Part shown: positions 7,775 through 55,900 of the stretch, one piece after another
Position numbering within the stretch: the first letter of the stretch is position 1
Layout: the number at the start of each line of letters is the position of its first letter
Assembly: GCF_021513275.1 (NCBI RefSeq)
Contig: NZ_CP090978.1
Span: 1,364,001-1,428,000 of the forward strand
DNA: 64,000 nt
Origin: Paenibacillus hexagrammi
GTDB lineage: Bacteria; Bacillota; Bacilli; Paenibacillales; NBRC-103111
Direction: 5' to 3'
Translations under genes and position numbers: made by a program
Notes under the pieces: generated by a model
The model's input: only the letters and a program-made list of their open reading frames with translations
Databases searched by the model: none
What the model was told of the DNA's origin: nothing

Positions 7775-9280
7775 ATGAAAGCGTTAAAAAAACCGAAATA
7801 TCGGGATTTACAATTGAGTGAATGTGCGGGCGCCCCTATCTTGCGTACCCTTTGGGAGAGGTTTGATATTTCGCTCCTCTTAACTCAGTCTGGCATGATG
7901 AAGCGTAGCGGAACGCCGTCCTGGTTGCTATGTTTTCTCTATGTGGTGGGTCTCATTTCTAATTGCTCTTCCGTTGTTCAAATGGCCGATTTGGCTCAAA
8001 AGGACTCTTTATTAAAAGTTATGTTTAAGCCATGGAAACTTGCGCAGTATACCATGAGCCGTTTTTTTACGACTTCGTTTCCATGGAAAACATTTGGTAA
8101 AAAGCGAATTGAGCGCCTTCAGCAGGATGGGCAAACAAGGCTGAAAGAAGGGGATGTCATAAATCTAGATGACACGCATTGTGCGCATCCGTATGCTAAA
8201 CAACTCCCTTTTTTATCATGGCTTTTTGATCATTCTACGAAAACATATTCATGGGCGATGAATTTGGTTGTCATTCAAGCTGTCTTACAAAGTGGGCTAG
8301 AGTATCCCTTGTTCTATTCGATTTGGCATAAACCTGAAACCAAAGGTGAGGGTCTTACGAAGTTGGATCTCGCCAAGCAAATGCTCTTGATGCTGCGTGA
8401 ATCCGTGAAATGCCGATTATGGGTAGCCATGGACCGTTGGTATTTGTGTAAGGATTTTTTCGTGTTCCTGGAGTCAAATCAGTTTGATTGGGTAACCAAA
8501 GCCAAGCGAAATACGGCTTTATTTCGAAGGGAAATCGAGCCTCTTACTCGAAGAGAGCGTTACGTACCGTTGACTCCCAATATGCTTATTCGAGAAGTGT
8601 TTAAGAAGCTAACAAGTCACAGAACATCAGGTCTGGTATCCATCGCAATTCCAGATATCTATATGAAACAGCCCTATACCGTAACCAATCGTAAAGGAAA
8701 ACAAGTCACCAAACAAAGATATGTTCAGATTGCCGCTGTTGCCGCCATGCGTTTAAAGGAAGACGAACTCTCGATACATGTAGAATCTACGGAAGATGAC
8801 GAATCCCCAGCTACATACAGAGGGGCTTATCTTCTCATTAGTAACCGCTACGATGCACCGAAGGAAGCTACACAGACGTATGTGAAACGCTGGCGTATTG
8901 AGGTGTTTTTTCGAACTGCTAAGCAGGAACTGGCTTTTGAAAAGTGCCACTCCGAATCCGAAGCGCATCACCATGCCCACTTCGAGCTATTATTTACAGC
9001 GGAGACCTTGCTGGGCGTTGCCTTATTTGAAATGAACAAAGAAAAAACGAGTGGAGATGAAGGCTGCACCCACGGCGAAATGGTCCGCAGCCTTTTCCAC
9101 ACTCGTTGCCAAACTCGCAAAAGAACCTACAAAGGTCATGAGCGAATCTACGTTGATTTTGACATAGAAGTGAAACGTTTTGCAAGACTTATTCGATTAT
9201 TTTGGCCACAGCATTATTTAATGCTTCTTTGGGTTACACCTAAACCACAAAATTACCAAGTGTTACCACGAGGTGCATAA
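7775..9280 (+). CDS. IS4-family DDE transposase
   Basis: A 501-aa transposase. Candidate catalytic acidic residues lie in DVINLDDTHCAH (first D, about residue 130), VAMDRWYLCKDFF (second D) and YVKRWRIEVFFRTAKQ, which fits the Y-(2)-R-(3)-E-(6)-K signature of IS4-type enzymes and supplies the E. The N-terminal region (WLLCFLYVVGLISNCSSVVQMAD) is usual for the group. It acts by cut-and-paste transposition on the 14-bp repeats. The frame is intact, so the element could be active. A 7693 TTGACT may serve as the -35 of its promoter. Confidence 0.9.
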   Translation: MKALKKPKYRDLQLSECAGAPILRTLWERFDISLLLTQSGMMKRSGTPSWLLCFLYVVGLISNCSSVVQMADLAQKDSLLKVMFKPWKLAQYTMSRFFTTSFPWKTFGKKRIERLQQDGQTRLKEGDVINLDDTHCAHPYAKQLPFLSWLFDHSTKTYSWAMNLVVIQAVLQSGLEYPLFYSIWHKPETKGEGLTKLDLAKQMLLMLRESVKCRLWVAMDRWYLCKDFFVFLESNQFDWVTKAKRNTALFRREIEPLTRRERYVPLTPNMLIREVFKKLTSHRTSGLVSIAIPDIYMKQPYTVTNRKGKQVTKQRYVQIAAVAAMRLKEDELSIHVESTEDDESPATYRGAYLLISNRYDAPKEATQTYVKRWRIEVFFRTAKQELAFEKCHSESEAHHHAHFELLFTAETLLGVALFEMNKEKTSGDEGCTHGEMVRSLFHTRCQTRKRTYKGHERIYVDFDIEVKRFARLIRLFWPQHYLMLLWVTPKPQNYQVLPRGA

Positions 9281-34532: not shown

Positions 34533-35807
34533 TTGATTCTAACAGGCAGATCTCCGCTCAGTGAGGATATACATGCTAAACTGAAGGAATGGAACAGTAC
34601 AGATATCAGGATTGAATACAGGCAGGTCGATGTGTCCGATCTCAATGCGGTTAACGAGCTCATTCAAAACATTCGAGAATACTTCGGGGAACTTCATGGT
34701 ATTATCCATGGCGCTGGTGTAATCAAAGACAACTTCATCATTAAAAAGACAAAAGATGAATTCGCGGATGTACTAGCGCCTAAGGTAACAGGGCTGGTCA
34801 ATCTGGATCAAGCCAGTCAAGATGTTAAGCTGGACTTTTTTATTCTGTTCTCTGCTATCGCTGGAACGATTGGTAATGTTGGACAGGCTGATTACGCAAC
34901 TGCCAATGCCTTTATGGATGCTTATGCTAGTTATCGTAATCATTTGGCCCAATTGAACCAACGTCACGGGAAAACGTTATCGATCAATTGGCCGTTGTGG
35001 CGAGATGGCGGAATGCGCGTTGATCAAGAACGTGAGAAAATGATGGTTCAGAATACCGGAATGTTGGCTATGGAGACTGAAAGCGGAATCCTGGCTTTAT
35101 ATAGAAGTATAGCATCAGGTGAAAATCAAGTGATGGTGATGGAAGGCCAGCTCGCTAAAATGAAGCAGCAGCTGTTGGAAAACAGCCCTGTTTCCGTAAG
35201 GTCGATGAAGAAGGTTGCTGATAGTAACAATTTACAAGATCAAGTGCAACAAGATCTGATTAAAATGGTATCAGATTTACTTGAGGTAAATCCCGCAAAC
35301 ATCGATGTAACCGTATCGCTTACTGATTATGGATTTGATCCTTTCCGTGTGGCTGAATTAGCCAATAAAATCAGCGAGGAATATTCATTTGAGGTTTCCA
35401 CACATCTATTATTTGATCATTCAACGATTCATCACATTACCAGCTACTTGATAGATAAGTACGGTGATAGGCTCAAAAATACATATCGGATAGAGCATTC
35501 GGACCAACAATCTCCCGCTGCAGATGGTACAAGGACGGCAGTCGGAGAAGAACTGATTAATGAAAAAGTCGTTACTTATTTGAAAAGAGTGCTATCTACA
35601 GTCATCAAGCTGCCCGTAAATCGAATAGAAGCGGATGCCGAGTTGGAAAAGTACGGAATCGATTCGATCGTGGTGATGCAAATAACGAATCAATTAGAAA
35701 AGGATTTCGGTTCATTATCGAAAACTTTGTTCTTTGAATACCAAAATATTCAAGAGTTGGCCGGATATTTTATGGAGACACACAAGGAGCAGCTGCAAAA
35801 ATATTAG
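34533..35807 (+). CDS. PKS B, fragment 2: KR2-ACP2a*-ACP2b
   Basis: Coding in this frame begins near 34452 (YLITGGLGGLGLIVAKEIAKRV), before the first ATG. KR2 has the NADPH glycines and the catalytic Tyr in GQADYATANAFMDAY. VIKDN suggests the B-type stereochemical class. Two carriers follow. ACP2a reads DYGFDPFRVAELANKI: the Ser that receives phosphopantetheine is Pro (codon CCT, 35340-35342), so it cannot be loaded. ACP2b reads KYGIDSIVVMQ and is normal. The frame ends at five As (35797-35801); six would give LQKILGIENK and run into KS3. Confidence 0.85.
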   Translation: MILTGRSPLSEDIHAKLKEWNSTDIRIEYRQVDVSDLNAVNELIQNIREYFGELHGIIHGAGVIKDNFIIKKTKDEFADVLAPKVTGLVNLDQASQDVKLDFFILFSAIAGTIGNVGQADYATANAFMDAYASYRNHLAQLNQRHGKTLSINWPLWRDGGMRVDQEREKMMVQNTGMLAMETESGILALYRSIASGENQVMVMEGQLAKMKQQLLENSPVSVRSMKKVADSNNLQDQVQQDLIKMVSDLLEVNPANIDVTVSLTDYGFDPFRVAELANKISEEYSFEVSTHLLFDHSTIHHITSYLIDKYGDRLKNTYRIEHSDQQSPAADGTRTAVGEELINEKVVTYLKRVLSTVIKLPVNRIEADAELEKYGIDSIVVMQITNQLEKDFGSLSKTLFFEYQNIQELAGYFMETHKEQLQKY

Positions 35808-35866
35808 GAATAGAGAATAAAGTAACAGCAACGGTTCACCAGGAACAAGATCCAGTCGTATACAGT

Positions 35867-36238
35867 GTGATGATGGCTCCTAAAAGCCATACTCACAAGC
35901 GATTTACCTCGTTAAAACGATCTCCAGAAGAGAGAGAAAACGAGGTATTTGACGTTGCCATTATCGGAGTCTCAGGGCGGTATCCCGGGGCGAGAAATCT
36001 ACAGGAATTCTGGAACAATTTGCGGAATGGTCGGGATTGCATTACTGAAATTCCTAAAGAACGTTGGGATTCCAGCGTATACTTTGACGAAGATAAAACG
36101 AAATCCGGGAAGACATATTCCAAGTGGGGGGATTTTTGGAGGGGGTCGATCAATTCGACCCGCTTTTCTTTAATATCTCCCCCGCGAAGCGGAACTGATG
36201 GATCCTCAGGAACGATTGTTTTTGGAGTGCGTGTATGA
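35867..36238 (+). CDS. PKS B, fragment 3: start of KS3
   Basis: N-terminal part of KS3 (DVAIIGVSGRYPGARNLQEFWNNL, ITEIPKERWDSSVYFDED). Coding really begins near 35802. The frame breaks at six Gs (36126-36131; seven expected, giving KWGGFLEGVDQFDPLFF) and once more near 36177-36186, where comparison with KS4 and KS7 shows one base missing before REAELMDPQER. Confidence 0.75.
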   Translation: MMMAPKSHTHKRFTSLKRSPEERENEVFDVAIIGVSGRYPGARNLQEFWNNLRNGRDCITEIPKERWDSSVYFDEDKTKSGKTYSKWGDFWRGSINSTRFSLISPPRSGTDGSSGTIVFGVRV

Positions 36239-39200
36239 AGCCATGGAGGATGCGGGGTATACTCGCGAAACATTGGGTTCGAACCGTGAGTCAGGTCTGG
36301 ATGGAGACGTTGGGGTTTATGTAGGAGTCATGTATGAGGATTACCAACTTTTTGGAGTCGAGGAACAGACGCTGGGAAGACCGATAGCAGCTGGCGGAAC
36401 CTTAGCATCCATCGCTAATCGCGTGTCCTATTTCTTCAATTTACACGGACCGAGCATGGCTGTGGAAACGATGTGCTCCTCCTCATTAACAGCCATTCAT
36501 CTGGCTTGTCAAAGTATTCAGCGAGGCGGTTGTGAACTGGCCATCGCAGGAGGAGTGAATATCTCCCTTCATCCGAATAAATATTTGAAGCTCAGCCAAG
36601 GGAAATTTATTTCCAGCAAAGGAAGATGTGAAAGCTTTGGGGAAGGCGGCGACGGTTACGTACCCGGCGAAGGGGTAGGGGCCATATTGCTAAAGCCGCT
36701 ATCGAAGGCAATCGCAGACGGCGACCAGATCTATGGGGTTATCAAAGGGACAGCCATTAATCACGGAGGAAAGACCAACGGATATACGGTACCTAGCCCC
36801 AATGCGCAAGGTGACCTAATAGGTAAAGCTTTGAAAGAAGCTGGAGTCAATCCGCGGACCATCAGTTATTTGGAAGCCCACGGAACCGGAACAGAATTGG
36901 GAGATCCGATTGAAATTACCGGCTTAACCCGGGCGTTTGGCCGAAATACGCCTGACAAACAATTTTGTGCGATAGGGTCGGTAAAGTCGAACATCGGGCA
37001 TTGTGAAGGCGCAGCGGGGATAGCGGGACTAACCAAAGTATTACTGCAATTCAAACATGGCCAAATCGTGCCGTCGCTCCATTCAAAGGTATTGAATCCT
37101 TATATAGAATTTAAGGAAACTCCTTTTGTGGTGGAGCAAGAACTAAGGGAATGGAAGCGACCATGGATCGAAATCGACGGAGAGCTCAAAGAATACCCTA
37201 GACGGGCGGGAGTATCCTCTTTTGGAGCGGGAGGATCCAACGCCCATTTGATTATTGAAGAATACATGTCCGAAGTACGGGAACGTGCCGAATCTGCGGT
37301 TAGTCCCGAGAATACGGCGATTATTGTATTATCGGCTAAGAATGAGGAACGCCTGCAGGAGCAAGTGGTGCGATTGATTGCCGCTATTCAAGAACAGCCG
37401 CTCACCGAGAAGGATTTAATCGATACCGCCTATACACTTCAAGTAGGGCGGGAAGCGATGGAAGAACGTTTGGCCGTGATCGTAAGTTCTCTGAAGGACC
37501 TACAGGCAAAGCTGACAGGTTACTTGGAAGGCAAAGACGATATCGAAGGCCTGTACCGGGGACAGATCAAACGCAGTAAGGAGGCCGTGTCAGTTTTCAC
37601 AGCGGATGAAGACCTGCTTACAGCGATAGACGCCTGGATCAGTAAAAGGAAATACGGAAAACTGCTTGATTTATGGGTAAAAGGATTAAGTATAGACTGG
37701 AATCGGCTTTACCCAGGGACCAAGCCGCGCCGCATCAGCCTGCCGACGTATCCTTTTGCCAAAGAGAGATATTGGATTCCGGAAAGTCAGACTGGACTCG
37801 CCCATGGCACTGTAGCACCAATAACCGGCAGTGTGATTCATCCCTTATTGCATCAAAATACTTCCGATCTGACGGAACAACGGTTTAGCACAACATGGAC
37901 GGGGCGGGAGTTTTTCTTAACCGATCATGTGATCAAAGGACAACGGGTACTCCCGGGGGCAGCTTGTTTGGAGATGGCGCGTGCGGCAGTAGCGGAGGCT
38001 ACAAGAGAAGGAGACGAAGTCGCAATCAAACTGAAAAACGTCGTATGGACGCAGCCTATCGTCGTAGGAGAACAACCGCTTCGAATGCATATTGGGCTGT
38101 ATCCCGAAGATAACGGGGAGATTGAGTATGAAATCTATCGAGAGGATGAAGCGGACTTTGCCGAATCGGTCGTATACGGACAAGGCAGAGCTCTGCTAAG
38201 CCCAGTGAAGGAAAAGCAGATATTACATCTCAAAGATGTGCAGGAGGAGTGCAATCTAAGCATTCTCACATCCGAAGAACTGTACAAGACGTTTCGAATG
38301 ATCGGAATCGAGTACGGACCGGGGCATCAAGGAATTGAGAACGTATATTTGGGAAAAGATCAAGCGTTGGCAGAGCTGTCATTGCCAATGTCGATCCGGA
38401 ATACACAGGATCAGTATGTTCTCCATCCCAGCATCCTGGATTCTGCGCTCCAAGCGACAATCGGGCTTCGAATAGGCGGCGAAGACCTGAAGCCAGCGCT
38501 TCCTTTTGCCTTGCGGGAGATTGAAATTCTTGGCAGATGCACACCGAAGATGTGGGCATGGATTCGGAATAGTACCAACAGTCATGCGGGGGATCGTGTA
38601 AGAAAATTAGATATTGATGTATGTGACGAACAAGGCAATGTCTGTATACGGATGAAGGAGCTTTCCTCCAGAGCGCTGGAGGGAGAGAAGAATACGATCG
38701 AATCCGCGATCGCATCAGAGCTATTCATGCTTGAACCCGTCTGGGAAGAGCGATTGAATGCTCGCCAAAGTTCTGCTGCTGATTATGCTCAACATCTGAT
38801 TCTTTTATGTGAACTAAGTAACGTCACCTCAGAGGCTATTGAAGAGCGGATAAACGGGGTACGATGTGTCACATTGCATTCCCCGCAGCTCAGTATTGCG
38901 GAACGATTCCAACGTTATGCAGTCAGGGTATTTGAAGAAATTCAGAGCCTGGCAAAGTTGAAACCAAAGAAAGAAATACTCATTCAACTAGTAGTTCCAA
39001 ATCAAGGAGAAGAAAAACTCTTCTCGGGCTTGCTGGGACTTTTGAAAACGGCGCAAATTGAGAATCCCAAATTGATCGGACAACTGATTGAAGTGGAAGC
39101 GAGTGAAGGGGTAGAAGGGTTAAAAGTAATGCTGGAAGCCAGCAGCGCCATCAGAGAGCAGCACATTCGCTATCAATCAGGTAAGCAGTTGGTTACAAGA

Positions 39201-42200
39201 TGGAAGGAACTCGAGGTGCAACCTGAAGCGGGCGACCTCCCTTGGAAAGACCGAGGTGTGTATCTCATCACCGGGGGATTGGGCGGCTTAGGACTTGTAT
39301 TCGCGGAAGAGATTGCGGCGCGGGTTCAAGAGTCGGTGTTAATTCTAACCGGCCGTTCTTCGCTGAATGAGGTCAAACAAGCCCGATTGAAAAAGCTTGA
39401 AAACCTGGGAGCACATATCGTATATCGGCAAGTCGATGTAACGGATCAACAAGCAGTGACAGAATTGATACGAAGCCTTCACGAACAATTCGGTCATATC
39501 GATGGCATTATTCATAGCGCTGGATTAATTAAAGATAATTTTATTATTAAAAAGACGAAAGATGAATTTGTAGAAGTATTAGCTCCAAAGGTCACCGGAT
39601 TGGAAAACTTGGATCAGGCAAGTAAAGATTTGAGACTGGATTTCTTTATTCTCTTCTCTTCATTGACGGGGAGGTTCGGTAATATAGGGCAGGCGGATTA
39701 CTCAACCGCCAATGCTTTTATGGATGCATATGCCAATTACCGTAACCGAATGGTCCAGTTGAACCGACGACATGGGAAAACGTTATCGGTAAATTGGCCG
39801 TTATGGCGAGATGGCGGAATGGGTGTTGACCAAGAACGCGAAAAGATAATGACACAGAACACTGGGATGATCCCGATGCAAACACAGACAGGGATCCGCG
39901 CCTTGTACCAGGGCTTGGCATTGAGAAATGAGCAGGTCGTGGTGATGGAGGGGGACATCGGCCAGTTCCGAGCCAATCTTATCGAGCCAACCCATCACCA
40001 AGACAGAATGACAAATCAGAATACGGTTACCGGAGATGACTCAAAAGGCACAGCTCACAGTGAGGAATTACTTTACGAAAAAGCTATCAATTACTTAAAG
40101 AAAATGCTTGCTTCCGTCATCAAGCTCCCAAGTAATCGAATTGAAGCGGATGTCAAGCTAGAAGTATACGGAATCGATTCGGTTATGGTCATGCAAGTAA
40201 CGAATCTATTAGAAAAGGAATTCGGTTCATTATCGAAAACATTACTTTTTGAATACCAAAGTATTCAGGAATTGGCCGGATATTTGGTTGAGACACACCG
40301 GGAGCAGCTGCAGAAGATATGGGGTATTGAAGATAAAGCAGCGACCTCGATTACTCAGGATCAACGCACTGGAATAGACAATACAAAGATTGCGCCTAAA
40401 AGCCGTAGACGAAAACGGTTTGCCTCCTCTAAGGAATCTTCCGCAGAGAAAGGAAATGAGGCCTTTGACGTTGCCATTATTGGGGTTTCGGGGAGGTATC
40501 CGGGGGCGAGAAATCTTCAGGAATTCTGGAACAATTTGCGGGACGGAAAGGATAGCATTATTGAAATTCCTAAAGAACGCTGGGATTCCAGCGTATACTA
40601 TGACGAAGATAAAACGAAACCTGGAAAGATGTATTCCAAGTGGGGAGGATTTTTGGAGGGTGTCGATCAATTCGATCCGCTTTTCTTCAATATTTCCCCG
40701 CGCGAAGCGGAACTGATGGATCCTCAGGAACGATTATTTTTGGAATGTGTGTATGAAGCGATGGAGGATGCGGGATATACTCGCGAAACATTGGGTTCAT
40801 ATCGCGGATTGGGTCTGGAAGGCAACGTTGGGGTTTATGTAGGTGTCATGTATGATGAGTATCAGCTTTTCGGGGCTCAGGAACAGATGCTGGGAAGACC
40901 GGTCTTGTCGGGAGGAACCTTAGCTTCAATCGCCAACCGGGTGTCCTATTTCTTCAATTTCCATGGACCCAGCATGGCTGTGGAAACGATGTGTTCCTCC
41001 TCATTAACGGCCATTCATCTGGCTTGTCAAAGTATCCAGCGGGGTGGATGTGAACTGGCGATAGCGGGGGGAGTGAATGTATCTCTTCACCCGAATAAAT
41101 ACCTGAAGCTCAGCCAAGGGAAGTTCACTTCCAGTAAAGGAAGATGCGAAAGCTTCGGGGAAGGCGGCGACGGATACGTGCCCGGCGAAGGTGTAGGGGC
41201 CGTATTGCTAAAGCCGCTATCGAAAGCCATCGCAGACGGCGACCAGATCTATGGGGTTATCAAGGGGACTGCCATTAATCACGGAGGAAAGAATAATGGA
41301 TATACGGTACCTAGCCCTAATGCGCAAGGAGTTCTAGTGGGTCATGCTTTGAAAGAAGCTGGAGTCAATCCGCGGACCATTAGTTATTTGGAAGCCCACG
41401 GAACCGGAACGTCCTTGGGAGATCCGATTGAAATTAACGGGTTGACTCGGGCATTTGGCCAGGATATATCTGACAAGCAGTTTTGCGCAATTGGCTCAGT
41501 GAAGTCGAACATCGGGCATTGCGAAGGCGCCGCCGGTATAGCGGGATTAACGAAAGTATTATTGCAATTCAAGTATGGCCAAATCGTACCGTCTCTCCAT
41601 TCCAAGGTGCTGAATCCTCATATTGACTTTAAGGAGACTCCTTTTGTGGTGCAGCAGGAACTGACGGAGTGGAAGCGTCCATGGATCGAGATCGACGGAG
41701 AGCTCAGAGAATACCCAAGACGGGCGGGAATATCCTCCTTTGGGGCTGGAGGAGCTAATGCCCATATGGTCATCGAAGAATATGTATCGGAAGACGGGGT
41801 GAGGGCTGAACGTGCGGTAAGTCCCGACAATCCGGTCATGATTGTATTGTCGGCCAAGAATGAAGAACGCCTGAAGGAGCAAGTGGGGCGATTAATTGCT
41901 GCCATTCAAGAGCAGCCACTCAGCGAGAAGGATTTAATGGATACGGCCTATACGCTCCAAGTGGGGCGTGAAGCGATGGAAGAACGTCTGGCCATCATCG
42001 TAAGTTCCCTGAAGGAGCTACAGGAAAAGCTGACAAATTATTTGGATGGAAAAGACGATATTGAAGACCTGTACCGGGGACAGATTAAACGGAATAAGGA
42101 GACTATGGCCATCTTCGCTGCTGATGAAGACATGGTCCAGATAATAGACGCCTGGATAAGTAAACGCAAATATGGAAAGCTGCTTGATTTATGGGTGAAA

Positions 42201-44144: not shown

Positions 44145-44560
44145 AGATTTAAGATTGGATTTCTTTATTCTCTTCTCTTCATTGACGGGAAGGTTCGGAA
44201 ATATAGGGCAGGCAGACTACGCAACCGCCAATGCTTTTATGGATGCATATGCCAATTACCGTAACCGATTGGTCCAATTGAACCGACGCCATGGGAGTAC
44301 GTTATCGGTAAATTGGCCGTTATGGCGAGATGGCGGAATGGGTGTTGACCAAGAACGCGAAAAAATGATGACACAACATACAGGGATGATCCCGATGCGG
44401 ACTCAGACAGGAATCCGCGCCTTGTACCAAGTCTTAGTATCGAGAAACGCCCAGGTCATGGTGATGGAGGGGAATCTGGCAAAAATGAAGCAAAAAATGC
44501 TTTCGACTCCCGCTGCACCAGAACCGAAAGTTGTTGTTAAAAGGCCTGAATCTTCGGCCA
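36198..44560 (+). repeat. Tandem near-identical PKS modules (modules 3 and 4)
   Basis: Bases from about 36198 to 40000 recur from about 40716 to 44520 with an offset of about 4518 bp, often identical over tens of bases (for example the KS start MDPQERLFLECVYEAMEDAGYTR region and the KR start). Parts of modules 6 and 7 (about 51700-53700 and 55760-57600) belong to the same repeat family. Such repeats promote recombination and can collapse in assembly. Confidence 0.8.
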
Positions 44561-46512
44561 GCGGCGTCACGAATAACTTGCTTGATCAAGTTCAGAAAGC
44601 GTTAGTGCAGATGATGTCGCAGTTGTTGAAGGTGAAGAGTGACGATATTAGCTTAGATGTTGTTTTGAATGAATATGGATTTGACTCCATAACATTTACG
44701 CAATATACCAATATGATCAACCAGGAATACCAGCTTGAACTTGCCCCAACCATATTTTTTGAATATTCCAGCTTGGAAAGTTTCTCTACCTACTTGATCC
44801 AGGAACACCAAGCCGCTTTAGCAAGTAAATTGGATGTAATAACGCACGCTGCGGTTCCAATGCCAGGGGAAGAAAAATCGAAAGAGGTTAAGCTTTCGGG
44901 TAAAAGACAGCGCTCGCGGTTTGTTTCAGCCCAGACCTTGCCCGTAACCAAATCCAATCCTATCATCTCCGAACCTATTGCGATTGTTGGCATGAGCGGG
45001 GCTTTTCCTATGGCTGAGGATTTGAAAGAATTTTGGAGTAATCTAGCGGCAGGGAAAGACTGTATCAGCGAAATTCCCAAAGAACGCTGGGACTGGCGTG
45101 AGTATTATGGGGATCCAATCCAAGAAGCCAATAAAACCAATATTAAGTGGGGCGGTTTTATGGATGGAATCGCTGATTTTGACCCGTTGTTTTTTGGCAT
45201 TTCGCCACGGGAAGCTGAGCTTATGGATCCACAGCAGCGCATGCTTATGACTTATGTTTGGAAAGCGATTGAGGATGCCGGATATTCGGCTCAAAGCCTT
45301 TCGGGAACTAAAACCGGCATATTTGTAGGAACGGCCAATAGCGGCTACAGCGGATTGATATCCCGAGCGAAAGTGTCAATCGAAGGGTACAGTTCGACCG
45401 GGTCAGTTGCTTCGATGGGACCGAATCGGATGAGTTATTTTTTAAATATTCATGGTCCAAGCGAACCCGTTGAGACCGCGTGCTCAAGTTCATTGGTAGC
45501 GATCCATAGAGCTGTGAACGCCATTGAGACAGGCAGCTGCGACATGGCGATTGTTGGCGGCATTAACACGCTCGTGACGCCCGAGCCTTACATCAGTTTC
45601 AACAAAGCTGGGATGCTCTGTGAAGACGGACGCTGTAAGACGTTTTCAAACCGTGCCAATGGTTATGTGCGAGGTGAAGGGGTTGGCATGCTCTTTTTGA
45701 AAAAGTTGGGGGATGCGGAACAAGCCGGCGATCATATTTATGGGGTAATCCGCGCCACGGCCGAAAATCACGGAGGTAGGGCCAATTCCTTGACGGCGCC
45801 TAACCCGAAAGCGCAAGCGGAGCTGTTGAAAACGGCGTACACGAAGGCTGGAATTGATCCGAGAACGGTTACTTATATTGAAGCCCATGGAACAGGAACT
45901 GAACTTGGCGACCCCATCGAAATCAACGGTTTGAAAACAGCATTTAAGGAGTTGTATCAAATCGCGGGAGATTCCGACAACATAGCTGCTAATTGCGGAT
46001 TGGGCTCAGTGAAGACGAATATCGGTCATTTGGAACTGGCAGCAGGAGTCGCAGGAGTTATTAAAGTATTGCTGCAAATGAAACACAAAGCGCTGGCTAA
46101 AAGCCTTCATTGTGAAACGGTTAACCCTTATATTCAACTTCAAGACAGCCCATTCTATATTGTGCAAGAAACCAAAGAATGGAGTTCTGTTCAGGATGCT
46201 CAAGGCCGAGAAGTCCCCCGCAGGGCTGGGGTTAGTTCTTTTGGATTTGGAGGAGCCAACGCCCATGTGGTACTTGAGGAATACATTCCTAAAGTGCGGG
46301 AACGTTCCAAATTAGCGGTTAGTCCCGAGAATCCGGCCATTATCGTATTGTCGGCCAAGAATGAGGAACGCCTGAAAGAACAAGTGCAGCGCTTGATGGT
46401 CGACATTCAGGAACAGCCATTTACCGACAAAGATTTGATCGATATCGCCTATACACTCCAGGTAGGGCGGGAAGTGATGGAAGAACGCCTGGCCATCATT
46501 GCCGGATCCTGA
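44119..46512 (+). CDS. PKS B, fragment 5: KR4 (end)-ACP4-KS5
   Basis: Continues KR4 from GLENLDQASKDLRLDFFILFSSLTG (catalytic Tyr in GQADYATANAF). ACP4 is NEYGFDSITFTQ, S190. KS5 follows (VETACSSS, C455; EAHGTGTELGD; KTNIGH). KS5 differs in sequence from KS3/KS4/KS7, but its downstream linker (SPENPAIIVLSAKNEERL) is shared with them. The frame is lost at CC (46508-46509), where CCC would continue AGSLKELQEKL. Confidence 0.88.
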   Translation: MENLDQASKDLRLDFFILFSSLTGRFGNIGQADYATANAFMDAYANYRNRLVQLNRRHGSTLSVNWPLWRDGGMGVDQEREKMMTQHTGMIPMRTQTGIRALYQVLVSRNAQVMVMEGNLAKMKQKMLSTPAAPEPKVVVKRPESSASGVTNNLLDQVQKALVQMMSQLLKVKSDDISLDVVLNEYGFDSITFTQYTNMINQEYQLELAPTIFFEYSSLESFSTYLIQEHQAALASKLDVITHAAVPMPGEEKSKEVKLSGKRQRSRFVSAQTLPVTKSNPIISEPIAIVGMSGAFPMAEDLKEFWSNLAAGKDCISEIPKERWDWREYYGDPIQEANKTNIKWGGFMDGIADFDPLFFGISPREAELMDPQQRMLMTYVWKAIEDAGYSAQSLSGTKTGIFVGTANSGYSGLISRAKVSIEGYSSTGSVASMGPNRMSYFLNIHGPSEPVETACSSSLVAIHRAVNAIETGSCDMAIVGGINTLVTPEPYISFNKAGMLCEDGRCKTFSNRANGYVRGEGVGMLFLKKLGDAEQAGDHIYGVIRATAENHGGRANSLTAPNPKAQAELLKTAYTKAGIDPRTVTYIEAHGTGTELGDPIEINGLKTAFKELYQIAGDSDNIAANCGLGSVKTNIGHLELAAGVAGVIKVLLQMKHKALAKSLHCETVNPYIQLQDSPFYIVQETKEWSSVQDAQGREVPRRAGVSSFGFGGANAHVVLEEYIPKVRERSKLAVSPENPAIIVLSAKNEERLKEQVQRLMVDIQEQPFTDKDLIDIAYTLQVGREVMEERLAIIAGS

Positions 46513-46604
46513 AGGAACTTCAGGAAAAGCTCACAAGCTTCCTGAAAGGTCAGGAAACTATCGAAAACCTATACCGGGGGCAGATTAAAGGTAATAAGCG
46601 AATC

Positions 46605-46967
46605 GTGTCCACCTCTACTACGAATGAGGATCTGGATAAAGCGATTGATTTGTGGATCAGCAATAAAAAGTACGAAGAGCTGCTTGATCTATGGGTGAAA
46701 GGAATGAGCATGGACTGGAACAGGCTATACCCGGGCATCAAGCCGCATCGAGTCAGCTTGCCGACGTATCCTTTTGCTAAAGAGAGATACTGGGTTCCCG
46801 AAAATAAGATTCAATCGGAAACCAACCCTATATCATCACAAAATAAAGCTCAACTGGATGATCTCTTATATGAACAATTAATTGATCAAGTGTTAGAAGA
46901 TTCCATTACTATCGATGTTGCGGTTCGGAAAGTAAAAGAATTTATGGAAGTAGGAAATGGGATTTAG
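46605..46967 (+). CDS. PKS B, fragment 6: KS5 linker and C-terminal docking segment
   Basis: Coding in this frame begins near 46510. It holds the post-KS linker (LLDLWVKGMSMDWNRLYPG, SLPTYPFAKERYWVPE) and a helical tail, DDLLYEQLIDQVLEDSITID, likely a docking element that joins KS5 to the DH5 at the start of PKS C. Splitting a module between KS and DH is common in trans-AT systems. The stop at 46967 looks genuine because a ribosome site and a new start follow within 20 bp. Confidence 0.8.
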   Translation: MSTSTTNEDLDKAIDLWISNKKYEELLDLWVKGMSMDWNRLYPGIKPHRVSLPTYPFAKERYWVPENKIQSETNPISSQNKAQLDDLLYEQLIDQVLEDSITIDVAVRKVKEFMEVGNGI

Positions 46968-46986
46968 TTCATTCTGGAGGTTAGCT

Positions 46987-49900
46987 ATGGATAGTTTTTT
47001 AACATACATTCTATCTGAGGTGAAAAACGGGCGATTATTGAAATCAGAAGCCTTACTTTTGCTGCGTCAATTGAATTCTCGAATTGCGAACGATGAGAAA
47101 TCGCATGTTTCCCATCCCTTCTTGCATCAAAATACTTCCGACCTGACTGAACAACGATTTAGCACAACTTGGACGGGGCAGGAGTTTTTCTTAACCGATC
47201 ATGTGATACAAGGTCAGAAGGTTCTGCCAGGTGTAGCCTGTTTGGAAATGGCGCGTGTGGCAGTGGCCGAAGCGACTAGAGCTAAAGACGGGGCTGCAAT
47301 CATATTGAAAAATGTTGTATGGACGCAGCCTATCGTTGCAGGTGAACAACCGCTTCGTGTGCATATCAGGCTGTATCCGGAAGGTAGCGGTGAGATTGGA
47401 TACGAAATCTACCGTGATGATGAAGCGAATCCTGCCGAATCGGTCGTATACAGCCAAGGCAGCGCCCTGCTGAGCTCTGATATGGATAGACCGGTGTTAC
47501 AACTAAAGACTATTCAGGAGGAGTGCAATCCAAGCAGTCTCACATACGAAGAGCTGTATGAGACGTTTCGGGCGATGGGAATCGAGTATGGACCCGGACA
47601 TCAGGGGATTAAGAAGCTCTATGTGGGAGAAAGTCATGCATTGGCAGAGCTGTCATTGCCTATGTCTGTCCGCGAAACCCAAGATCAGTATGTTCTCCAT
47701 CCAAGCATCATGGATTCAGCGCTCCAAGCGGTGATCGGGCTGCGAATTGGCGGCGAAGATCGGAAGGCATCGTTGCCCTTCGCCGTACAGGAGATACAAA
47801 TTATGGGCACATGCACACCGAAGATGTGGGCATGGGTTCGGAATAGTAGGAGCAGTCAAGCAGGGGATCGGGTAAGAAAATTAGATATTGATGTATGCGA
47901 TGATCAGGGTAAGGTCTGCATTCAAATGAAGGAGATTTCTTTCAGGGGAATGGAAGGGGAACTTCAAAACCATTCTGAGCCGCAAGTTGCCCTAGAGACT
48001 GCCATGTTAACACCTGTATGGGATGTCATTACGGAGAAACCAAGTCAAGCCTGTTCGTTCTCAAACGAGCAGGTTTTCGTTATTGGAGCAAATACAGGTG
48101 AGCAAAGTCGGATCGGGGAATATTTCCCTAATGCACATCGATTGGAAATTGGAATTGATGACAATGTGGAGGAAATCGCCAAAAAGATAGAGATGCACGG
48201 AACAGCAGATCATATCATATGGATTGCTCCATACGCTCCTTTAGGCTCACTCATGGAAGAGTCGTTCATTGAAAAGCAGAATCAAAGTATCCTCTCGCTA
48301 TTCAGAACGGTTAAAGCCTTGCTGAAGTTAGGCTACGGAGGAATAGACCTGAATTGGAGTGTAATTACCACTCAAGCTCAACCTGTTCATAAAAATGATC
48401 ATGTAAATCCAATTCATGCGGGAATTGACGGGTTCATCGGTTCAATGGCTAAAGAATACACGAACTGGAAAATACGTCTTCTTGATCTGGAAGCGGATTG
48501 CTCGTGGCCAATTGATGAAATGTTCGCGCTGCCATGGGATTCACGAGGCAACCCTGTGGCCTACCGAGGCAGGGAATGGTACAGCCAGAAACTGGTTGCC
48601 ATCCAGCCTGTTAACAGGGACCGAACTTCGTATAAGAAGGGAGGAGTCTATGTAGTCATTGGGGGCGCCGGCGGTATTGGCGAAATCTGGACGGACTACA
48701 TGATTCGTACCTATCAAGCACAGATCATATGGATTGGCAGACGGCCTAAAGATGAAGCGATACAGACGAAGCTGGATCAACTCGCAATTTTAGGAGTATC
48801 GCCGCATTACATGACAGCTGATGCGACGAACCAGAAGGAACTCCAGCAAGCTTATGAAGAGATCAAGCGGAAATATACGGGAATTGATGGAGTCATTCAT
48901 TCTGCGCTCGTACTTCATGATCAAAGCTTGGCAAACATGGAAGAAGAATCTTTTAGAGCCGGACTCGCGGCAAAAGTGGATATCAGTGTGCATATTGCTC
49001 AAGTTTTCCACCAGGAACCGTTGGATTTTGTCATGTTTTTCTCTTCGTTCAACTCATTTACAAAAGCTTTTGGACAAAGTAACTACACGTCCGGCTGTAC
49101 ATTCGCAGATACTTTTGCCCATCAGCTATCTTTGGAATGGCCATGTGCTGTGAAAGTGATGAATTGGGGATATTGGGGAAGTGTCGGTATTGTCGCTTCC
49201 AAAGCTTACCGGGAACGGATGGAACAGGCGGGCATCGGATCTATAGAACCACCGGAAGCCATGGCAGCCTTGGAAACACTTTTGGCAGGTCCTCTGGATC
49301 AAATCGGATTCATAAAGACTACAAAATCCATAGGTTTTGAGGCATTAGAATCCATGGAGGAACGGATAACAATATACCCGGATCGTTTGAAACCCAATCT
49401 GGAGAACATATCGAACAACTTGCCAAAACGAAACCAAGAGCTTGAAGTGTTGAAGAACACAGAAAACTTAGCCGTGAAAGAAATGGAGAACGTCCTCCAT
49501 AGACTGCTTTTGGGTCAATTACAAGCGTTGGGATTGTTGAAGTCAGGTGAATGGACATCCGGCAATCAAACGAAAACGGTTTTATTGGAGAAGTACGACC
49601 GTTGGTTGAAAGAAAGTTTCACAGTTTTGGAGACGAACCAATATCTTCGGTTTGACGGAGCACATGCCGTGGTAAATGAAGCCCCCTTAGAGGAAATAGA
49701 TTCGATATGGGAAGATTGGTTCAAAAAGAAGAACACATGGCTGGAAATTCCGAATTTGAAAGCCCAGGTGACTTTGGTAGAAGAGACAATGCGGGCTTTA
49801 CCCGCAATTCTTACCGGTAAAGTGCTTGCTACAGACATCATGTTTCCTGATTCATCTCTTGAATTGGTGGAAGGAATATACAAAAATAACTTGGTTGCAG

Positions 49901-52900
49901 ATTACTTTAATGGTGTGCTGGTGGATACAATTATTGCTCATATTGAAGACCGGTTGCACCAAGACCCGGCTGCGCGCATCCGGCTGATTGAGATTGGTGC
50001 TGGTACCGGAGGAACCAGCAGCATGATTTTTCGGAAACTTGAGCCCTATCGGGAACATATTCAGGAATATTGTTATACAGATATTTCGAAAGCGTTCATT
50101 ATGCATGCTGAAAACGTATACGGGGCTAGCCATCCTTATTTGACATACCAGCTTTTTAACGTGGAACAGCCTGCCGCCGGACAAGGAATTCGTGTGGGTG
50201 ATTACGATATTGTCATTGCCGCCAATGTCATACATGCTACCCCAAATATTCGGCAAACTATACGCAATCTGAAAGCAGTCGCTCGAAAAAACGGGTTGAT
50301 CTTATTAAATGAAATAAGCAGGAAGTCGCTATTCACCCATTTGACTTTTGGCCTTCTAGAAGGGTGGTGGCTGTATCAAGATCCGGAATTACGCATTCCG
50401 GGTTGTCCGGGCTTATCTTCTGAAACCTGGCGCAAGGTTCTGGAAAATGAGGGTTTCAAGTCGGTGTACTTTCCCGCTGAAACGGCGCATGATTTGGGAT
50501 TACAGATCATTGCGGCTGAAAGTGATGGAGTTGTCCGACAAAAACAGTTATCTCATTCAAATGCCATTCCTGGAAAACAGATAGCTAAAAAACAAACCGA
50601 AGAAGTCGCCTCAGATTTGCTTCGGGACAAAAGTACGTCGTACCTGAAAAGATTGATTGGAGAAACACTAAAGCTGCCCAGTCACAAGATCGATTCGACA
50701 GAGCAGCTGGAAAAGTACGGGATCGACTCCATTTTGGTTACACAGCTAACGAATAACTTGCGCAAAGTATTTGCGAATGTGAGTAGCACCTTATTCTTCG
50801 AATATCAAACCATCGATGCTTTAGTAGAACATTTTCTAATCACTCAAAAAGAGTCATTGATTGCTTTAGTAGGTTTAGAGCAGAAGGGGGAGGAAGAAAA
50901 GAGTTCAAGGATCGATCCAAAAGACATCTCGATTTCATCAACGCATAATCATTCGGGAATGAAACAAACCAGACGCTTTCTCCATATGGATGAGCCAAGC
51001 ATGACAAGACCGGAATCAACACGTTCAGCGGTGGAGGAGATTGCCATTGTTGGCCTTTCGGGGCGTTACCCTGGGGCTATTCATATGTATGAATTTTGGA
51101 ATCAACTAAAAGCGGGACAGAATTGTATCTCAGAAATTCCTGGCGAACGCTGGAACTGGAGACACTATTATCATGCCGAGAAAGGAAATAAAGGGTCCAT
51201 CTATACGAAATGGGGCGGATTTCTCGAGGATATTGATAAATTCGATCCGTTATTTTTCAATATTGCTCCTGCTGAAGCTGAGAAAATGGACCCTCAAGAG
51301 CGGCTATTTCTTGAAACCGCCTATGCTTGCATCGAAGACGCCGGGTACACAACGGCTAATCTAAGTGAAAGCCGTAAAGTTGGCGTATTTGTCGGTGTTA
51401 TGAATGGCAACTATCCTACGGGGCATAATTATTGGTCCATTGCTAACCGGGTTTCCTACTTATTTAATTTTCATGGTCCGAGCATCGCCGTGGATTCCGC
51501 TTGTTCCTCTTCATTGACAGCGATACATTTGGCCTTGGAAAGCTTGCATAGCGGTACAAGTGAATGTGCGATCGTAGGTGGTGTCAATTTAATTGTTGAT
51601 CCCGTTCATTATAAGAGACTATCAGCGAAGACGATGCTTTCATCAACGGATCAATGCAAGGCGTTTGGAGAGCATGCCGATGGATTTGTTGCCGGAGAAG
51701 GGGTAGGGGCCGTAGTACTGAAACCCCTATCCAAAGCAATCGCAGACGGGGACCAGATCTATGGAGTAATCAAAGGTACAGCCATTAATCATGGAGGAAA
51801 AACCAATGGATATACGGTGCCTAGCCCCAATGCGCAAGGCCATTTAATTAGCCAGGCTTTGAAAGATGCCGGAGTAAATCCACGGACTATCAGTTATTTG
51901 GAAGCTCACGGAACCGGAACGGTATTGGGAGATCCGATAGAAATTAACGGGCTGACCCGGGCCTTTGGTCAAGATACATGGGACAAACAGTTTTGCGCGA
52001 TTGGTTCTGTGAAGTCCAATATTGGGCATTGTGAAGGCGCAGCCGGAATAGCGGGATTAACGAAAGTGCTGCTGCAACTAAAGAATGGCCATATCGTGCC
52101 GTCGCTTCATTCCGAGGTACTGAATCCTAACATTGATTTTAAGGAAACTCCTTTTGTGGTGCAGCAGGAGCTGACGGAATGGAAGCGGCCGTTGATCGAG
52201 ATCGACGGAGAGGCCATCGAGTATCCAAGACGTGCGGGAATTTCCTCCTTTGGAGCCGGGGGAGCCAATGCTCATGTGGTCATTGAAGAATATATATCGA
52301 AAGACAGAAAGACGGCTGAACTTTCGGTTAGTCCTGAAAATCCCGCCATCATCATATTGTCGGCCAAGGATGAGGAACGTCTGCTGGAGCAAGTACGGCG
52401 ATTGATCGCTGCCATTCAAGAGCAGCCGCTCGCCGAAAAGGATGTAATCGATACCGCTTATACACTCCAAGTAGGGCGGGAAGCCATGGAAGAACGCTTG
52501 GCCGTCATCGTAAGTTCCCTGAAGGAACTGCAAGAAAAGCTGACAAGCTTTCTGGAAGGCAAAGATGATATCGAAGACCTGTACCGGGGACAAGTTAAAC
52601 GGAATAAAGAAACAATGGCGATTTTCAATGCGGATGAGGACATGCACCATACGATCGATGCCTGGATAAGCAAGCAGAAATATGGAAAACTGCTTGATTT
52701 ATGGGTGAAAGGTTTGAGCTTAGATTGGAACAGGCTTTATCCGGGCAGCAAGCCGCGCCGCATCAGCCTGCCGACGTATCCTTTTGCTAGGGAGAGATAC
52801 TGGGTTCCGGAAATGGCGGCGGGAGTCGCTGATATCGCCGGCGGGTTGTCGGGACCGACAGCCGTCACCGTGATCCACCCGTTATTGCATCAAAATACGT

Positions 52901-55900
52901 CCGATCTGACCGAGCAGCGATTTAGCACAACATTAACGGGGCAGGAATTTTTCTTAACCGATCATGTGATCAAAGGACAACGGGTACTGCCGGGGGCAGC
53001 TTGTCTGGAGATGGCGCGTGCGGCAGTAGCGGAGGCGACAAGGGGAAATGACGGGGCAGCGATCAAGCTGAAAAACGTGGTGTGGACACAGCCTGTCGTT
53101 GCAGGGGAACAATCTCTTCGGGTGCATATCGGGCTGTATCCGGCAGATGACGGAGAGATCGAATACGAAATCTACCGTGAAGATGAATCGGATCCTGATG
53201 AATCTGTCTTCTACAGCCAAGGCCGTGCCTTGCTAAGCCCGATGAAGGAAAAGCCGCTATTACATTTAACGGCTTTGCAGGAGCAGTGTAATCAAAGCAA
53301 TCTCTCATCTGATGAGCTGTATCAGGCATTTCGGGCGATGGGAATCGAGTATGGTCCCGGGCATCAGGGCATTGAGAAGGTATATGTGGGAGAAGATCAA
53401 GCCTTGGCAGCACTGTCATTGCCATTTTCTGTCCTTGATACCCAAGACACGTATGTTCTCCATCCCAGTATCATGGATTCCGCACTCCAAGCATCGATTG
53501 GGCTGCGGAAGGGCAAAGAAGAACTTAAAGCGGCGCTGCCTTTTGCATTGCAAGAGATTGAAATTTTCGGTGCTTGCACGCAGAAGATGTGGGCTTGGAT
53601 TCGCAGCAGTACCAACAGTCAAACGGGGGAACGCGTAAGGAAACTAGATATAGATCTATGCGATGAGCAGGGCAATGTCTGTATTCGGATGAAGGGGCTT
53701 TCTTCCAGAGCGCTGGAGGGTGAGATCGATTCTCCAGAATCCCAAGCAGTCTCAGAGCTTCTCATGCTTGAACCGGTCTGGGAGGAACAGGTGGCTGGAC
53801 ATCAAAGTTCTGCTATCGAGTATGCACAGCATCTGATTATTCTGTGTGAACTAAGTAGCGTCACCTCCGAAGCTCTGGGGGATCGGATAAATGGGGCACA
53901 TTGCATTTCATTACAATCTTACCAGGAAAGTATCGCGGAACGATTCCAAAGCTATGCAGTTCGAATATTTGAAGAAATTCAAGGCCTGGTAGATTCGAAA
54001 CCGAAGAAAGAAATTCTCATTCAAATTATAGTCCCGAACCAAGGAGAAGGGGAGCTTTTCAAGGGTTTGCTCGGACTTTTGAAAACGGCGCAAATTGAGA
54101 ATCCCAAATTGATAGGACAATTGATTGAAGTGGAAGTGCATGAAGGAACGGAAGGGATCAAGAAGATCCTGGAAACCAGCAGTGCCGCCAGGGAACAGCA
54201 TATTCGCTATCAATCAGATAAGCGGTTAGTTAGCAGATGGAAAGAGCTCGAGGAACAGCCTAAAGCGGTCGACTTACCGTGGAAAGACCGGGGCGTGTAT
54301 CTCATCACCGGTGGTACCGGCGGATTGGGACTTGTCTTCGCCGAAGAAATTGCCGAACGAGTTCAAGGAGCTGTTGTAGTATTAGCGGGCCGATCCTCGC
54401 TGAACGAGGCCAAACGAGCCCAATTGAAGCAGATTGAAAATCGGGGCGTACATATCGTATACCGTCAGGTCGATGTAACAGATAAACATGCAGTAGCAGC
54501 ATTCATACGCAGCCTTCAGGAACAATACGGAAGAGTCGATGGCATTATTCATAGCGCCGGAGTGATTCAGGATAATTTTATTTTGAATAAGACAAAGGAT
54601 GAATGTATAGAAGTATTGGCTCCTAAGGTTTGCGGTTTGGAAAACCTGGATCTAGCAAGCCAAGATTTGAGGCTGGATTTCTTCATATTATTCTCTTCCT
54701 TAACGGGAAGATTCGGCAATATGGGGCAGGCAGATTATGCAACCGCCAACGCCTTTATGGATGCTTATGCCAATTACCGTAACCGATTGGTCCAATTGAA
54801 CCGACGTCATGGGAAAACCTTATCGGTGAACTGGCCGTTATGGCAGGCTGGCGGAATGAGTGTTGTCAAAGAACGCGAAAAGATGATGATGCAGAATACC
54901 GGAATGGTGGCTATGCAGACTGAAACCGGCATCCGGGCTTTATATCAGAGCATAGCATCCGGAAAAGACCAGATCATGGTAATGGAAGGCCAACTCACGA
55001 AAATGAGACAGCAGTTGTTGGCATTCTCCCCAGCTCACGTAGCATCGATGAAGCTGGATGCCGTTAGTACCAATTTGCAGGATCAATTGCAACAAGATCT
55101 GATCCAAATTGCGGCTGAGTTACTCAAGGTGAATCAGACGAATATCGATGCAAACGTGGCGCTGTCTGAGTATGGATTCGATCCGTTCCATGTGACCGAG
55201 CTAGCCAATAAACTCAATGAGAAGTATGCATTTGAGGTTTCTCCGACCTTATTATTTGATCATTCAACGCTTCGTCATACTGCTGTTTACTTGATCGAAA
55301 CCTACGGCGATATGCTCAAAAATATATATCGGAATGAGAATTTGTATATAACTGTCTCAGCCGGAGAGAGTACAAAATCGGAAGCAGCCGATGAAGAATT
55401 GCTCTACGAAAAAGTCGTAAATTATGTAAAGAGAATGCTTTCTTCCATTATCAAGCTGCCCGCGAATCGAATTGAAGCGGACGCCCAGTTGGAAAAGTAC
55501 GGAATTGATTCGGTCATGGTTATGCAGTTAACAAATCAATTAGAAAAAGTGTTTGGTTCTTTATCGAAAACATTGTTTTTTGAATACCAAACCATTCAGC
55601 AATTAGCCAGATATTTTCTAGAGGCACATCGGGAGCAATTGCAAGAATTACTGGGGATTGAAGAAAAAGTTGCGGCTGCGACGAATCAGGTTCAAGACAT
55701 CGGGGCAGGCAGTGCAATGACTGCGACTAAACGTCATCGACGCCATCGGTTCGTCTCGTTGAAAGGATCTCCTGCCGAGAAAGATAACGAAGTGGTTGAC
55801 GTTGCCATCGTTGGGGTTTCGGGCAGGTATCCCGGAGCGAGAAATTTGCAGGAATTCTGGAACAATTTGCGGGATGGACGGGATTGCATCACTGAAATTC

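Follow-up and report, generated by a model that had tools for sequence, protein, structure and literature searches.

Serine-less Acyl Carrier Domains in a Paenibacillus trans-AT Polyketide Synthase: Putative Structural Adaptors ahead of a Working Carrier

Two carrier domains of a Paenibacillus trans-AT polyketide synthase (PKS), hereafter abbreviated as psiACP 2a and psiACP 6a, have proline in place of the serine to which phosphopantetheine (Ppant) is attached, and on balance we favor the interpretation that such domains are retired carriers of the GFDS type, silenced but kept as structural adaptors. A more tentative proposal, drawn from sequence comparison, is that psiACPs form a distinct and repeatedly evolved class of non-carriers, which might act as a scaffold or gate keeping the ketoreductase (KR) aligned with the working ACP, selection silencing the first of two unlike carriers behind a KR. 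Single inactive carriers are already known, for example ACP9a of the phthoxazolin PKS, and what the present analysis would add is the recurring, preserved class. Because Pfam carrier models match the psi domains, annotation by profiles counts them as carriers; should they be silenced adaptors, treating them as carriers would make models of chain transfer, stoichiometry and module engineering wrong for such lines. If true, the silencing of the first member of an unlike pair would be a general rule of rewiring and a predictable part for engineering, and the form of the rule seen behind KR domains bears on the evolutionary repair of recombined assembly lines.

The Serine-less Carriers of the Window

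The window, namely the whole stretch of 64,000 nucleotides analyzed here (positions 1364001-1428000 of the contig), lies inside a trans-AT PKS/NRPS cluster with carriers that extend downstream to about 1.468 Mb. Its relevant features are collected in table 1. Re-reading of the codons bears out the earlier note, in which GFDPFR of ACP2a and GFDPFH of ACP6a were reported to have Pro instead of the Ppant Ser; the rest of the carrier fold is retained, since the motifs ELANK and LLFDHST are found in both domains, and so is the common setting KS-DH-KR-psi-ACP with a normal ACP as partner in modules 2 and 6, the KR of module 2 being interrupted by an apparent frame break near 34.44 kb. ACP4 (GFDSIT) is indeed the nearest Ser-bearing carrier in the same genome, 38% identical to ACP2a and 41% to ACP6a, and the two psiACPs are 63% identical to each other over 83 residues. 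Although both of the Pro carriers counted previously are real, the count is too low for the cluster, for a third Ser-to-Pro carrier (GFDPYKAAE, codon at L008:17871) is present downstream of the window in a module of KS-DH-KR-psi-MT-ACP type. The remaining 13 of the 15 carriers listed for the line have Ser, encoded by TCN codons in all cases.

Table 1. Positions in the window of the psiACPs and of the domains with which they are compared
Feature	Coordinates	Strand	Details
psiACP 2a, carrier fold without Ppant Ser	35214..35468	+	Pro CCT 35340-35342; ortholog L064:9632 also Pro; dN/dS 0.30
psiACP 6a, carrier fold without Ppant Ser	55057..55311	+	Pro CCG 55183-55185; ortholog L063:615 also Pro; dN/dS 0.24; AlphaFold model
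ACP 2b, Ser-bearing GIDS-type partner of 2a	35538..35795 (ends approximate)	+	Ser codon 35664
ACP 6b, Ser-bearing GIDS-type partner of 6a	55384..55641 (ends approximate)	+	Ser codon 55510
Module-2 ketoreductase, C-terminal part	34536..35006	+	Pfam KR; frame break just upstream, near G run at about 34445
Module-6 ketoreductase, directly upstream of psiACP 6a	54292..54846	+	Pfam KR, ORF residues 2446-2630
ACP 4, GFDS type, straight after KR, no second ACP	44560..44814	+	Ser codon 44686
ACP 3, GIDS type, module 3	40053..40310 (ends approximate)	+	Ser codon 40179

The open reading frame at 34533-35807 contains two carriers and two PP-binding stretches, and its best ACP_SdgA_C stretch (residues 232-314) coincides with the psi domain. 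Compared with the members of PF00550, both psiACPs have the predicted four-helix carrier fold and Pro at the position of the GxDS Ser. ACPs of beta-branching modules have Trp six residues past the Ser, a position that is occupied by Leu in both psiACPs and by Trp in carriers A1a and A1b of module 1. A conserved tryptophan is also mentioned in the available part of PMC9600693. Several apparent frame breaks occur in the PKS and NRPS genes of the window, some of them at homopolymer runs, and the psi domains themselves are unbroken.

Distribution of Serine-less Carriers

The search suggested by the earlier note, namely for GFDPF-type carriers in other assembly lines, found them in four named Paenibacillus records: the pattern L[TS][ED][YC]GFDP[FY] matches 17 stretches in a collection of one genome per species (84,980 species, from which the genome of the window and close relatives may be absent), four of which encode relatives, in P. 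tianmuensis, P. maysiensis and two strains of P. tyrfis. Of 392 genomes of the order, 59 had a match at E 1e-9 in a profile search, and a search across the phylum (398 genomes, E 1e-12) gave a match in three, the window's own genome included.

The window and 80 hand-chosen stretches, 68 from the same order and 12 more, were then surveyed; since the stretches were picked by their matches to psi or psi-like queries, the fractions given below are inflated with respect to natural frequencies, and related clusters contribute rows that are not independent. The order-level survey (the window plus 68 stretches, the first 3 kb of L008 being dropped because they overlap the window) contains 360 carriers, of which 347 lie on open reading frames of at least 150 amino acids; the other 13 are omitted from positional counts. 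Ser is absent from 34 of these 347, replaced by Pro in 19, Gln in seven, Ala in six, Tyr in one and Thr in one, as well as from one truncated carrier, cut at the end of L124 and counted apart. The twelve further stretches (eight taken from plasmid records and four from a single genome of the same class) have 86 carriers, two of them Ser-less: GFDMIQLTA with Met (L138:13179), in a KS-DH-KR-psi-ACP module of the PKS on pTML1 (NC_015708.1), and a carrier with Leu in Streptomyces xanthii (L140:8550). The PKS on pTML1, which we take to be the thiomarinol producer, thus has the same module type as the window, and differs by having Met rather than Pro and by belonging to a gammaproteobacterium. No Ser-less carrier was found in stretches L137 and L146-L148, presumably bacillaene lines judging from their make-up. 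Coverage beyond the phylum consisted of plasmid records, 8 of the 22 with matches being examined and two of these having a Ser-less carrier. In all, the sample contains 36 untruncated Ser-less carriers (with Pro, Gln, Ala, Tyr, Thr, Met or Leu), and they recur in 14 groups of assembly lines, as assigned by hand from cluster likeness.

A single origin of psiACPs was considered and rejected, given that a 325-row tree including 32 psi domains needs nine changes, of which the starred branches force at least three; the long branches make this tree unsure.

Position and Pairing

Between each of the 36 Ser-less carriers and the next KS there is a carrier with Ser. Straight after a KR, with ACP or MT-ACP following, is the location of 21 of the 36, while 13 stand straight after a KS and the remaining two have their upstream part outside the stretch. 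Among the tandems of the order-level survey, defined as two carriers of the same strand separated by less than 480 bases (which means that some Ser-Ser pairs join separate genes), the first member is silenced in 18 of 41 and a later member in none of 42. When the Ser site is masked, the closest active carrier of any other genome belongs to the GFDS or GFES type for 32 of the 36 psi domains and to a non-GF type for four. The next carrier, present within 1600 bases in 26 cases, is of the GIDS type in 21, GFDS in two, GLDS in one, GVDS in one and partly unreadable in one. Trees of KR and DH domains, in which the nearest neighbors are mixed, do not reveal a chimeric origin of the psi modules with DH-KR from GFDS-type modules.

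The members of psi-Ser tandems are only 0.19-0.33 identical (19 pairs), versus a median of 0.61 for Ser-Ser tandems (39 pairs). The low values among the latter (0.12-0.26) come from seven pairs made up of a GANS-type and a PKS ACP and from one unlike pair of L140, which has both Ser intact and is located behind a KS. Just three Ser-Ser tandems stand behind a KR, and their identity is 0.56-0.74. As far as this sample goes, therefore, unlike pairs behind a KR are those with a silenced first member and like pairs are those with both members active, even if the low identity of psi-Ser pairs could be the result of silencing and not its cause.

Orthologous Clusters and Selection

A cluster orthologous to that of the window is present in a genome with another family code, G330, which has Pro at all three sites (GFDPITVAE twice and GFDPIKAAE once). 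The best long protein matches between the two clusters, taken at 60% identity or above, are 69-82% identical, and a protein of G330 matches the module-2 KR of the window in two frames. (The genome G082 has the same family code as the window genome.)

The dN/dS ratio, calculated by the Nei-Gojobori method over 86 codons, is 0.42 for the third psi ortholog pair, that is higher than for 2a and 6a (table 1), while five active carriers compared between the same clusters give 0.05-0.20. Four further psi ortholog pairs range from 0.18 to 0.40, the pair at 0.18 having saturated dS, and the active carriers of those clusters give four values of 0.07-0.29 and one undefined. With longer ends the ratios become 0.31-0.45 for the three psi pairs versus 0.08-0.23 for the five active carriers. 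In all seven psi ortholog pairs pN is lower than pS (p from 4e-7 to 0.024), and their alignment has no stop codon and needs no gap. By these ratios the psi domains are constrained, less so than working carriers.

The earlier note argued that conservation in two modules of one line speaks against random decay, and this conclusion is upheld, even if the reason is weak because the copies are related. In G330 the identity between 2a and 6a reaches 94%, suggestive of gene conversion, versus 62% in the window; since copies within one line exchange sequence, the likeness of 2a and 6a does not constitute independent evidence. Decay by chance is instead ruled out by the orthologs, in which Pro and the fold are retained at dS of about 0.7-1.0, together with the recurrence in 14 groups. 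Every one of the 325 Ser codons in the order-level survey has the form TCN, from which Pro is one T-to-C transition away; Ala and Thr are likewise one change away, Tyr can be reached by a single change from TCC or TCT, and Gln takes two. One isolated case of Ser-to-Pro could thus be due to chance, an explanation that does not extend to the conserved set of sequences.

Constraint and Structure

After removal of rows more than 80% alike, we compared 28 psi domains with 67 active carriers of the GF type. Positions +1 to +4 show a mean rise in column entropy of 1.11 bits in psi, and loop 2/helix III one of 0.91 bits; the change amounts to 0.32 for helix IV, 0.14 for loop 1, 0.13 for the remainder of helix II and -0.05 for helix I. 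When each group is represented by a single row, the values become, in that order, 0.90 (0.45 to 1.41), 0.99 (0.63 to 1.28), 0.38 (0.17 to 0.60), 0.20 (-0.02 to 0.40), 0.27 (-0.01 to 0.56) and 0.09 (-0.09 to 0.28), the intervals reflecting resampling (300 draws of 14 psi groups versus 14 of the 23 active groups) rather than a model of descent. On this measure the face of the Ppant site is released, while helix I and loop 1 keep their constraint. Some constraint is lost from helix IV as well, a point that we count against the adaptor reading.

The residue preceding the Ser site is D or E in all 34 distinct psi domains (identical rows removed). Trp at -7 was considered as a hallmark of psi domains and discarded: it occurs in 13 of the 34 versus five of 372 active carriers, all five of the GFDS type, so that we read it as a mark of lineage.

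The AlphaFold model of psiACP 6a, built with eight sequences, has a carrier fold (pLDDT 86.6, pTM 0.77), and its best matches among solved structures by Foldseek are carrier proteins, namely 4hkg with TM 0.82 and VirA ACP5a with 0.81. Helix II of the model spans residues 43-57 and starts at Pro43, behind Asp42. Proline is well accommodated in the first turn of a helix, and aspartate at its cap. A model of KR-psi-ACP (pLDDT 66, pTM 0.52) is of too low confidence to reveal whether KR and psiACP touch. An interface between ACP and KR has been mapped, according to the accessible part of PMC8549798.

Relation to Known Inactive Carriers

The closest known case is module 9 of the phthoxazolin PKS of Streptomyces avermitilis, in which ACP9a has no Ser and the ACPs are termed "inactive-type and active-type" in the part of the report available (PMC5764310). 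As in the window, the first of two ACPs of a trans-AT module is Ser-less and is followed by an active ACP; the difference is that ACP9a was reported as a single case, and the likeness rests on its description. Other carriers described as non-functional are an "Inactive ACP0" in the aur pathway (PMC6916388), the ACP of Pks13 upstream of the TE (PMC11649247) and the ACP0 of PMC7619045, but these are single cases in other positions, and the available portions of the three papers give no recurring position or carrier type for them. Tandem ACPs of trans-AT PKSs are, as far as the accessible text of PMC7618002 goes, generally highly alike and identical in function, sometimes with unlike roles. The psi pairs share with them the presence of two carriers in a row per module and differ by being unlike (identity 0.19 and 0.28 in the window) and by having no Ser in the first member. 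The accessible parts of PMC7930024, PMC10952193, PMC9600693, PMC6113372 and PMC10098928 contain nothing on Ser-less carriers. Our literature search, which left most subscription papers outside its scope, returned the phthoxazolin case and general mentions and no description of a recurring class, which may nevertheless be in print.

Proposed Function and Alternatives

The interpretation that we favor runs as follows. The psiACPs would derive from acyl carriers of the GFDS type, in these lines located most often directly behind the KR, and the downstream GIDS-type ACP would now bear all chemistry of modules 2 and 6. If a non-matching upstream carrier had a Ppant arm too, it would load malonyl or a chain that the next KS refuses, a dead end that loss of the Ser would remove. 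Proline fits as a replacement, given that helix II of the model starts with it, just after the Asp that is kept, and that it is a single T-to-C transition away from every TCN codon. The domain would stay because, through its side with helix I and loop 1, it forms a folded adaptor that links KR (or KS) to the working carrier, as suggested by where constraint remains. The earlier suggestion of a structural role is favored by this location of the kept constraint, the adaptor role itself being our inference. Traces of module copying, also suggested earlier, account for the likeness of 2a and 6a and not for the retention of the domain.

Among the alternatives, a rather unlikely one is that psiACPs are passive remnants, second carriers left by a recombination or duplication joint that lost their Ser and persist since a misfolded insert would harm the megasynthase; purifying selection may indeed reflect merely the need to fold inside it. 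(A common recombination site of trans-AT PKSs lies near the KS C-terminus, according to the part of PMC11260071 available.) The unlike carrier pairs, the variety of replacement residues and the relaxed yet present constraint all suit a remnant, as does module 3 of the same line, a KS-DH-KR-ACP module without psiACP, which indicates that the module type does not strictly need a psi domain; moreover, an ACP0 is called an "evolutionary structural remanent" in the portion of PMC7619045 available. However, each of two sets of orthologous clusters has kept all three sites with no deletion, constraint is uneven, helix I and loop 1 being held to about the same degree as in active carriers of the GF type, and the silenced member of a tandem is always the first.

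It also seems unlikely that the Ser-less carrier is a docking platform recruiting a trans enzyme, for instance a trans enoylreductase or acyltransferase, while not competing as a carrier; a docking surface was also among the suggestions of the earlier note. In the gladiolin line the kind of ACP is described as a key factor in recruiting the trans ER (PMC10921412, available in part), and an ER domain adjoins module 2 of the window. The conservation of two positions is in line with docking, V at -18 being present in 25 of 28 psi domains versus 33 of 67 active GF-type carriers and D/E at -5 in 28 of 28 versus 55 of 67. The KS domains downstream are similarly suggestive: a tree of 305 KSs, 31 of them behind a module labeled psi, has 23 label changes versus a mean of 29.65 in 200 shuffles, the lowest of which has 26. 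A distinct KS class behind psi modules was nonetheless rejected, because psi and psi-less modules are intermixed on this tree; the KSs in question are interspersed with KSs from psi-less modules of similar composition, without pointing to one distinct product chemistry. Partner enzymes usually read the ACP face at the N-terminus of helix II and at helix III, where psiACPs have lost constraint, and the thiomarinol psi module, which we assume to be the maker of the 10,11-alkene and thus not enoyl-reduced, counts against docking as well.

Acyl carriage through another residue is highly improbable, given that the replacement varies among seven residues, most of them without a suitable nucleophile. 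Practically negligible is the probability of sequencing or assembly error, or of a dead and decaying cluster, for which the frame breaks of the window might speak: independent genomes rule out error as the cause of the Pro codons, as G330 has its three Pro sites within long open frames and GFDP carriers are present in the four named Paenibacillus records.

Sequence features and likeness of the Ser-less carriers

In the carrier domains that lack the phosphopantetheine Ser (psiACPs), a Trp at position -7 from this site, as in WSEYGxDP, is frequent, being present in 13 of 34 distinct psiACPs; among active carriers it is rare, with 5 of 372, all five being of the GFDS type. Within G330, a genome with an orthologous cluster, the counterparts of psiACP 2a (L064:9632) and 6a (L063:615) share 94% identity as against 62% for the two domains in the window, a difference suggestive of gene conversion between copies within a single line. 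In another surveyed genome, G382, two psiACPs (L101:180 and L102:2118) are identical to each other over the 88 residues displayed.

Besides their main placement after a KR, Ser-less carriers are found directly after a KS at the sites tabulated below, the one in L028 lying between a KS C-terminal region and a match to a KS-DH linker.

Ser-less carriers placed directly after a KS
Fetched stretch	Position
L028	764
L076	6468
L080	5437
L090	10670
L092	11526
L093	12393
L106	5891
L107	4214
L108	16272
L111	3045
L111	17328
L121	6095
L140	8550

Integrity and other features of the cluster

Apparent frame breaks occur in the PKS and NRPS genes of the window near 18.0, 18.7, 34.4, 35.8-36.1, 44.1, 46.5 and 58.4 kb, and may reflect either sequencing error or a decaying cluster. 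Inspection of the DNA revealed homopolymer runs at some of them (34.4, 36.1 and 44.1 kb), and the G330 proteins, compared at 34.4, 35.8-36.1, 44.1 and 46.5 kb, show no interruption there.

The tandem ACPs of module 1 (28873 and 29293) carry the Trp that flags beta-branching carriers. Further downstream, at 3899 of the overlapping stretch L008, there is a short ORF for an ACP (GANSIDRAD); the assembly line thus probably also performs beta-branching.

Just upstream of the NRPS/PKS genes lies a 501-aa ORF (7775-9280) that by eye resembles a transposase.
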